This document shows positions 34,486-36,337 of a stretch of 36,337 nucleotides of DNA, in pieces. The notes under the pieces are model-generated. The model made no database searches and had not been told where the DNA came from. It saw only the letters and a list, made by a program, of their open reading frames with translations. The position numbers and the translations under genes were made by a program. Position 1 is the first letter of the stretch. The number at the start of each line of letters is the position of its first letter. This stretch comes from Planctomycetota bacterium (GTDB taxonomy: Bacteria > Planctomycetota > Phycisphaerae > Phycisphaerales > SM1A02), in NCBI GenBank assembly GCA_022563315.1, contig JADFNO010000017.1, forward strand, positions 1-36,337. Reading direction: 5' to 3'.

Positions 34486-35070
34486 GTGGCCGAGAGCCAA
34501 ACGACGAATCACGATCCACCGACGGGACGACGAGTCATCGTCGGCCTAAGCGGCGGGATCGCTTGCTATAAAGTCGCCCAAGTCGTGAGCCGACTCGTCC
34601 AGGGGGACGTCGAGGTCACCGTCGCCATGACCGACGCCGCCACGCGGTTCGTCACGCCGTTGACGTTCGAGGCGTTGTCCGGCCGGGCGGTTTATTCCAG
34701 CCAGTGGCAGCACGTTGAATCGCATGACCCGCAGCACATCAGCCTCGCCCGCGCTGCCGATTTGATGCTCATCGCCCCGTGTACCATGGACATGCTTGCC
34801 AAGCTGGCGCACGGGCGCGCCGATGATGTGGTGAGTCTCATCGCCTCAGCTGTGGATTGGTCGCGTCAGCCGATGTTGATCGCGCCGTCGATGAACGAGG
34901 TGATGTGGAACCAGCCGTCCACACAGCGCAATCTGGCGCAGGTGAAGGCCGACGGCTGCGAGATCATCGACCCGGGTGAAGGTTGGCAAGCCTGCCGCAC
35001 CAAAGGCAAGGGACGCCTTGCCGAGCCGGACGTCATCCTCGACGCCGTGATGGCGAAACTCCAGCCATAG
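34486..35070 (+). CDS. coaC: Phosphopantothenoylcysteine decarboxylase (CoaC), stand-alone
   Basis: This flavoprotein makes 4'-phosphopantetheine from phosphopantothenoylcysteine in coenzyme A synthesis. The 194-residue product has the FMN-binding start RVIVGLSGGIACYKVAQV (about 16-33), then an HISLARAADLMLIAP segment with the active-site His (about residue 84). APSMNEVMWNQPSTQRNL supplies the PxMNxxMW substrate motif, and EGWQACRTKGKGRLAEP holds the active-site Cys. It ends near residue 190, as a stand-alone CoaC would; many bacteria instead continue into a CoaB domain. Start GTG 34486 is 35 bases after rpoZ. The final codons (35052-35070) coincide with the composition break, so the natural 3' end and a possible separate coaB cannot be verified. 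Confidence 0.88.
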   Translation: MAESQTTNHDPPTGRRVIVGLSGGIACYKVAQVVSRLVQGDVEVTVAMTDAATRFVTPLTFEALSGRAVYSSQWQHVESHDPQHISLARAADLMLIAPCTMDMLAKLAHGRADDVVSLIASAVDWSRQPMLIAPSMNEVMWNQPSTQRNLAQVKADGCEIIDPGEGWQACRTKGKGRLAEPDVILDAVMAKLQP

Positions 35071-35213
35071 GCGGAAAGCTGCGCATCCCGTACGGGACCG
35101 AACAGCGCGCCTGCAATTTCGGACTCTGCCGTACCGTCAGCAAAAGATGTTATAGGGGCGGCGCCAAGGCGGATTAAAGCCCGGCTGGCCAGCCCGATAT
35201 CTGATAAAGCCAT
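35052..35213 (-). CDS. Phage tail-tubular-like protein, N-terminal fragment cut at junction
   Basis: About 54 residues match the N-terminus of a podovirus-type tail tubular / head-tail connector protein family that I recall from alphaproteobacterial phages and prophages: ALSDIGLASRALIRLGAAPI, DGTAESEIAGALFGPVRDAQ and LSAYGWSFA. In such proteins the next residues continue the same fold; here they turn into the reverse complement of coaC (ITASRMTSG and on), which makes no sense as protein. The gene is therefore truncated at about 35052. A good ribosome binding site, AGGAG, sits seven bases before the ATG, so the 5' end is intact. The family call rests on memory of the N-terminal motif and needs a search. 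Confidence 0.6.
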
Positions 35214-35244
35214 CTATATTCTCCTGATTTGGATGGTTTTAGAT

Positions 35245-35271
35245 AGTAAAAAACCCGCTTATCAGCGGGTT
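35245..35271 (-). terminator. Intrinsic terminator upstream of the phage tail-like gene
   Basis: On the minus strand AACCCGCT (35271-35264) pairs with AGCGGGTT (35259-35252), an 8-base stem with a 4-base loop, followed by a run of T. It lies between the stop of the 88-residue gene (35292) and the ATG at 35213, so it should end that gene's transcript while some reads through. A second AACCCGCT copy just before it could form an alternative stem. Position between two head/tail-region genes recalls the T-phi terminator of T7-like phages. Confidence 0.75.
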
Positions 35272-35291
35272 AGCGGGTTGTGAAAATTTTG

Positions 35292-35558
35292 TTATGATAT
35301 GTGCAAACGGTGATCTATATGTTCCGGCCAACCTTTATGCTTAGCTTTGTTCTGCACAAGATCATAGATGCCGACGGCTGTAGGGCACGACTCTGACGGC
35401 GGTCCTATTCTGGCGTGTTCATGCACGAAAGTCGAGGAACTGCTAACTTTGTAGATAACCTTATCTCCCTCCTGCGTTACTTTCTCTGGAGTAGCATTGG
35501 TCCGCCATACGAACAGCAAACCGTCTTCTACAATATCGGCAGGTCTATCTTGATTCAT
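35292..35558 (-). CDS. Hypothetical 88-residue protein, phage-like context
   Basis: I do not recognise this protein. It has no membrane helix and no obvious motif; residues are mixed charged and polar, with a conserved-looking segment DGLLFVWRTNATPEKVT and a Pro/His-containing C-terminus. GC content is intermediate, lower than in the coaC side and higher than in the DNA to its right. No Shine-Dalgarno is visible before ATG 35558; a short palindrome lies there instead. A terminator follows 21 bases after the stop, and then the tail-like gene on the same strand, so it is probably part of a phage structural or accessory region. Confidence 0.5.
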   Translation of the reverse strand: MNQDRPADIVEDGLLFVWRTNATPEKVTQEGDKVIYKVSSSSTFVHEHARIGPPSESCPTAVGIYDLVQNKAKHKGWPEHIDHRLHIS

Positions 35559-35559
35559 G

Positions 35560-35581
35560 GTAAATTTTTACAGTAAATTTT
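35560..35581. promoter_or_regulatory. Possible operator: GTAAATTTT direct repeats beside a start codon
   Basis: GTAAATTTTTAC (35560-35571) is a perfect inverted repeat with a two-base centre. GTAAATTTT occurs again at 35573-35581, 13 bases on. It occupies the ribosome-binding position of the minus-strand gene starting at 35558. In AT-rich DNA this can arise by chance. Confidence 0.25.
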
Positions 35582-35657
35582 AACATAATACTAAGGTTGT
35601 ACCATACAAAGACAGGGCGCGTCAATTGCTTTATGTAAAAATAATTGCCCCGAATCA

Positions 35658-36035
35658 ATGAGAGGCCAACGTTTTTTAACCGCCCCTGATGAAATACACG
35701 AAGGAGTTTTTAAAGGATTTATTCAAGGTTATAATCTATTAAGATTTGCGAAAAAATTTTATGATGTGATCGTTTACAATCCAAGACCATTTAAATTTTT
35801 AGATGTTAAATCTTGGTTTGAACCCGATAGAATAGCTTATTTAAGTGCGGAAAAAATAAAAGATTATAATATCAGTTCACTGAGAAACGCCTTAAGTAAA
35901 ATAGATACAAGTATAAGTTATGAAAAGGCTTTTACTTATGAATCATTTTTTATTAAACCTTTTGTTAGAAAAATTTTTGGAATAAAGTCGTTATCTTCTT
36001 CTGATTTAACAAATATTTTAAGGAAACAAATTTAA
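35658..36035 (+). CDS. Hypothetical AT-rich gene, unknown function
   Basis: A 125-residue protein in DNA of about 30 percent GC, with AGA, AAA and TTA codons rare in the rest of the window. No family recognised. It is rich in Phe, Lys and Ile, has no clear membrane helix, and contains HEGVFKGFIQGYNLLRFAKK, then KSWFEPDRIAYLSAEKIKDY and a basic C-terminus ending LRKQI. The frame is open back to about 35595 without a good start, so the true gene could be longer or this could be a 3' remnant joined at the composition break. No Shine-Dalgarno is visible before ATG 35658. Confidence 0.5.
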   Translation: MRGQRFLTAPDEIHEGVFKGFIQGYNLLRFAKKFYDVIVYNPRPFKFLDVKSWFEPDRIAYLSAEKIKDYNISSLRNALSKIDTSISYEKAFTYESFFIKPFVRKIFGIKSLSSSDLTNILRKQI

Positions 36036-36089
36036 TTAATTTGTCCTTTTTGTGCAAGTATTACTGTGTACAATTATAGAAGAAACGCC

Positions 36090-36337
36090 ATGAGCATCAT
36101 CAAAGCAAATGCATCTCAACTTAGTTATTTAAACACTTCAAAGAAAGTTAACGATAGATGGTATGATAGATCAAACAGATCACTAGACACTCAACGCACC
36201 CTAGCAAGTTCTCAAAATAAAAGTTCTAGAAAAATTGTTGCAAGAATTCAAAATCTGATAACAAAAAGTAGTAGTATGGGAACAATTACTTCTTTTGTAG
36301 TAAACCCCGATGAAAGAACATCAATAAGACGCTTTGT
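36090..36337 (+). CDS. Partial AT-rich gene running off the window end
   Basis: ATG 36090 opens a frame of 82 codons with no stop before the end of the window. The translation begins MSIIKANASQLSYLNTSKKV and continues with a Ser/Arg/Asn-rich region (DRWYDRSNRSLDTQRTLASS) and a basic stretch SSRKIVARIQNLI. No family recognised. Codon use is like the gene before it, both on the same strand with a 54-base gap that has TACAAT (36069-36074) as a possible -10 box. The ribosome binding site is weak (AGAAA). The real gene extends beyond the sequence given. Confidence 0.5.
   Translation, partial: MSIIKANASQLSYLNTSKKVNDRWYDRSNRSLDTQRTLASSQNKSSRKIVARIQNLITKSSSMGTITSFVVNPDERTSIRRF

Follow-up and report, generated by a model that had tools for sequence, protein, structure and literature searches.

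Integrating elements often target the 3′ ends of conserved genes, where the end of the gene is restored. A short word common to unrelated genomes can also be found at joins of another kind, in chimeric contigs of short-read assemblies; in de Bruijn graph assembly, the smallest word is usually about 21. The locus described here has to be compared with both, as an intact coaC gene on the plus strand is met tail to tail by a fragment of a gene for a protein similar to tail tubular protein A (TTPA), which runs on the minus strand from 35213 down to 35052. The window that was analyzed is an entire contig of 36,337 bp (C270) from a draft assembly of 298 contigs and 3.76 Mb. The contig appears very likely to be chimeric from about 35052–35070 onward, with an origin in assembly or in the library. 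The last 1.3 kb is very probably a piece of a phage-like element from another bacterium, and its attachment to coaC an artifact instead of a biological fusion.

Organization of the contig end

The coaC-like ORF encodes 194 amino acids, terminates with a TAG stop codon at 35068–35070, and is the final native gene of the contig (Table 1). Its product matches the Pfam Flavoprotein family with an E-value of 5e-31, and its amino acid identity to same-genus orthologs is 96–97%. The GC content in one-kilobase bins is 0.59–0.66 along the contig and 0.41 and 0.31 in the final two bins, and the contig terminates 1.27 kb beyond the join.

Table 1. Features of the contig end, with positions in the window
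Feature	Position	Strand	Basis
coaC-like flavoprotein gene (phosphopantothenoylcysteine decarboxylase type), intact	34486–35070	+	PF02441; same-genus orthologs
Minimal shared word GGCGAAACTCCAGCC, coding in both genes	35052–35066	.	coaC and tail homology limits
Tail-tubular-protein-A-like gene, first 54 codons, truncated by the join	35052–35213	-	phrog_394; Micavibrio-type relatives
Terminator-like hairpin immediately upstream of the tail gene	35252–35271	-	Position
88-aa ORF without convincing relatives, at the place of the relatives' variable cargo slot	35292–35558	-	
AT-rich ORF, 125 aa, no relatives found	35658–36035	+	
AT-rich ORF reaching the contig end, at least 90 aa, no relatives found	36066–36335	+	

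Native flank of coaC and strain mixture

The end of coaC is present in two genomes of the same genus (G001 and G002) and in a second contig of the same assembly (C196), and in all of them it is 95–97% identical to the window up to the stop codon. Downstream of coaC, these three sequences are 87–92% alike to one another over 350–865 bp, and the window after the stop codon bears no likeness to the flank of any of them. A DNA search of 35040–36337 in G001 and G002 matched only the 30–34-bp tip of coaC. The native continuation of the host sequence is thus found elsewhere (in C196, G001 and G002), as a chimera requires. The original prediction had pointed to the 3′ flank of coaC in relatives as a means of checking the join, and this comparison came out in the expected direction, with a native flank that is conserved in three other sequences and absent in the window.

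C196 (L038) is a 3.4-kb contig of the same bin that begins inside coaC and carries the 3′ end of the gene together with the native flank. Its coaC is a second copy, diverged by ~5% from that of the window, so at least two strains are present at this gene, and the bin is mixed here.

The truncated tail gene

The minus-strand fragment, with its ATG at 35213, shows the profile similarity expected of the TTPA family: residues 4–62 align with positions 3–61 of the 190 positions of phrog_394, with an E-value of 8.9e-9. Related loci in IMG/VR number 35, the best of which is 83% identical across all 54 residues. Amino acid identity of the 54 residues to Micavibrio-type chromosomal copies is at most 91%, and that of residues 4–54 to annotated TTPA proteins of phages is 35–41%. 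Full-length relatives are mostly 188–190 aa long, and the window keeps 54 residues. Similarity stops at residue 54, which corresponds to base 35052. In the best relatives, ~100–117 of 162 nucleotides match before this position, and 16–26 of 90 match after it, which is the chance level; most blastn alignments with Micavibrio-type loci end at 35051–35053. After '...SAYGWSFA', the relatives continue with a conserved stretch of the type 'TGQ...ADY..AF.LP.DFLRALSAG', and at this place the window reads the complement of coaC. The terminator-like hairpin listed in Table 1 is assigned by its position, as the count (one) compares with a mean of 1.1 in shuffled sequences; similar hairpins lie upstream of the tail gene in several relatives.

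Shared word at the join

The sequence that codes in both genes is at least 15 bp (35052–35066) and at most ~20 bp long (about 35051–35070). Orthologs of coaC match the window continuously to 35066 and differ at the synonymous position 35067, and the stop codon ends at 35070. The ~20-bp overlap holds only if the host strain carries a variant with the synonymous A at 35067 (CCA before the stop codon). The word encodes the conserved residues 49–54 of the tail gene, which is cut there; the codons of 'YGWSFA' on the opposite strand form the coaC end '...AKLQP*'. It had been predicted that the tail-like frame loses its sense at about 35052, that coaC ends at 35070, and that ~18 bases between these positions code plausibly in both genes. 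The limit of similarity to the relatives, the intact coaC ORF and the measured range of the overlap bear out all of this.

The 15-mer TGGCGAAACTCCAGC occurs in the native coaC genes of G001, G002 and C196 and in the corresponding codons of a phage locus (L013), and neither the native coaC ends nor the L013 tail gene carries the junction of the window. As relatives of each parent have this 15-mer independently of one another, the overlap is older than the join; the test was performed on relatives, and the exact donor is not among them. The shared word is a coincidence that is able to exist ahead of any join, and the breakpoint has the form expected of a chimera, in which a short sequence is present in both parents.

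The 15–20 bp identity could alternatively represent the attachment core of a prophage or a related element with its integration site at the coaC 3′ end, which would agree with the intact state of coaC. We regard a real element edge of this kind as extremely unlikely. An attachment core is expected to lie outside essential element genes, but the shared word is located inside a conserved structural gene (codons 49–54 of TTPA), so that the element would disrupt its own tail gene on integrating. The ORFs at 35052–36337, which cover the last 1.3 kb, show no integrase or recombinase family; one located beyond the contig end would escape this search. Moreover, the assembly yielded no other piece of the element, as neither the remainder of the tail gene nor the capsid gene was detected there (both searches were without a positive control in that genome), and none of the other 396 genomes sampled from the class has the tail gene. 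A prophage edge was therefore rejected, based on the location of the shared word in the element's tail gene and the lack of a recombinase and of additional element genes.

Origin of the phage side

Of 397 genomes sampled from the class of the window, one has the tail gene, and this one is the present contig. The gene occurs in 97 of 142 genomes (about two thirds) from the order of one Micavibrio-type genome, mostly once. The 57 loci found among species genomes of bacteria and archaea all bear the titles Alphaproteobacteria, Micavibrio, Pseudomonadota/Proteobacteria, or two Magnetospirillum-type genera. Micavibrio is placed under Bdellovibrionota in the NCBI taxonomy, and most record titles say Alphaproteobacteria. 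From the gene distributions and record titles, we infer that the host and donor groups are different classes. Two ancestries are thereby present on one contig, as expected of a chimera: same-genus on the host side and Micavibrio-type on the phage side. The most likely donor is a Micavibrio-type alphaproteobacterium that was present in the same sample. Neither a 27-mer of the tail gene nor a 26-mer of the AT-rich part gave an exact match in IMG/VR, and blastn with 35040–36337 against 50,697 phage records was likewise without a match.

In many Micavibrio-type genomes, podovirus-type structural genes form a cluster (L068–L124, e.g. L097:1652–12162, L072:4609–9064 and L090). It is composed of a head-tail adaptor (portal-type), a small PilZ-like gene on the opposite strand (a label given by eye, not by profile), the major head protein, a small conserved gene, a variable slot, TTPA, more cargo, a TTPB-like tail protein, and a tail fiber. 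The cluster may be a gene transfer agent or a resident podovirus-type element, perhaps a domesticated one. Judged by titles and the beginnings of abstracts, literature searches on Micavibrio with prophages or gene transfer agents yielded no paper on this cluster.

The cargo slot is located between a small gene of 79–83 aa, which follows the capsid gene, and TTPA (L003–L124, e.g. L089:3159–6000, L124 and L007), and its length is 75–2846 bp. Its place in the cluster is fixed, and it holds different genes in different genomes, often with lower GC content than the surroundings. Additional cargo is found between TTPA and TTPB. In L124, the cargo slots flanking TTPA contain related ORFs of 353 and 389 aa (L124:4024–5085 and L124:6634–7803), both beginning with MSLFGNSIGQMMIN, which suggests a duplication of cargo. 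Three ORFs with similar starts (MP...R.DATGRIIRDW) are located between TTPA and TTPB in L078 (6574–7176, 8558–9157 and 9484–10266).

The AT-rich contig end

The GC content drops abruptly after ~35560 and amounts to ~28% in 35570–36337. Searches of 35214–36337 against Pfam, PHROGs, IMG/VR, GTDB genomes, phage records, and the 142 genomes of the donor order yielded nothing convincing; the 88-aa ORF gave two weak matches within much longer frames, which were unconvincing. The abrupt fall in GC content and the AT-rich ORFs, which are without relatives in any collection searched, would fit a second join within the foreign end, besides the first one, such that 35570–36337 derives from yet another genome. 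This is rather unlikely, as the variable slot of the donor, with GC content down to 0.21–0.33 in L008 and L120, accounts for an AT-rich stretch. A single donor with such a slot explains the whole 1.27 kb, and a second join is possible but unneeded. The ORF at 35658–36035 probably belongs to this slot of the donor.

Formation of the join

In the proposed mechanism, the sequence up to about 35052–35070 would be the host genome, and the sequence from there to 36337 would be a phage-derived locus of another bacterium. The join would be caused by the tail 'YGWSFA' codons, whose opposite strand is identical to the final coaC codons (GGCGAAACTCCAGCC[A]TAG). With a second strain present where the host sequence ends, the assembler or a library chimera would have crossed from one genome to the other via the 15–20 bp word. 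We infer that the crossing took place during library preparation or assembly rather than in vivo. What was directly observed is the two halves, the point at which homology breaks off on either side, a native flank in other sequences, and a shared word that existed beforehand. The chimeric origin is also supported by the location of the join near the contig end and by the second copy of the adjoining gene, coaC. Points against it are the provable overlap of 15 bp, a length below that of the smallest word usual in de Bruijn assembly, and the failure to find the exact donor. Given this overlap, crossing purely through a k-mer would need the host CCA variant (~20 bp) and one additional base; otherwise, a library chimera would be needed. 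The assembler and the library are both candidate sources of the join. In either case, the proposal that unrelated genomes are joined here is supported, as host sequence meets the phage side of another bacterial group in a cut through the middle of a gene.

Microhomology at the joint is also the expected look of a real, non-programmed event, in which recombination over 15–20 bp would have brought a Micavibrio-type fragment into the host chromosome, and sequence alone cannot tell such a capture from a library or assembly chimera. However, the event would have to be confined to this strain and to coincide with both the contig end and an unresolved strain variant at coaC, which makes it highly improbable. 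It is just as hard to credit that a Micavibrio-type phage-like fragment was recently transferred to its place beside coaC via the 15–20 bp microhomology, for example by a particle made by the cluster. Even when biological integration and microhomology capture are taken together, they are very unlikely to account for the join.

In the case of the favored chimera, the foreign sequence (~1.27 kb) after ~35070 needs to be trimmed from the contig. The untrimmed contig would introduce a false phage gene into the bin and a false link between the class of the host and a phage element of another class. Flanks of relatives are able to diagnose a chimera over 15–20 bp without reads.

Comparison with known systems

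The locus resembles the insertion of a phage or element at a core gene's 3′ end in that the core gene is intact and a short block of identity is present at the edge. It differs in that no integrase is seen in the last 1.3 kb and there is no second edge, and the block is located inside a structural gene of the element. The tail fragment is similar in sequence to TTPA of T7-like podoviruses (phrog_394; e.g. Methylophilales phage MEP301 and Pelagibacter phage EXVC032P), but the window holds only 54 of about 189 residues because the gene is truncated by the join. Judged from sequence, the contig is also like chimeric contigs of short-read metagenomes (interspecies misassembly), from which the window shows no difference at this level: the sources are unrelated, the word that they share is short, the join is near the contig end, strain variants are present, and the assembly is a draft of 298 contigs.
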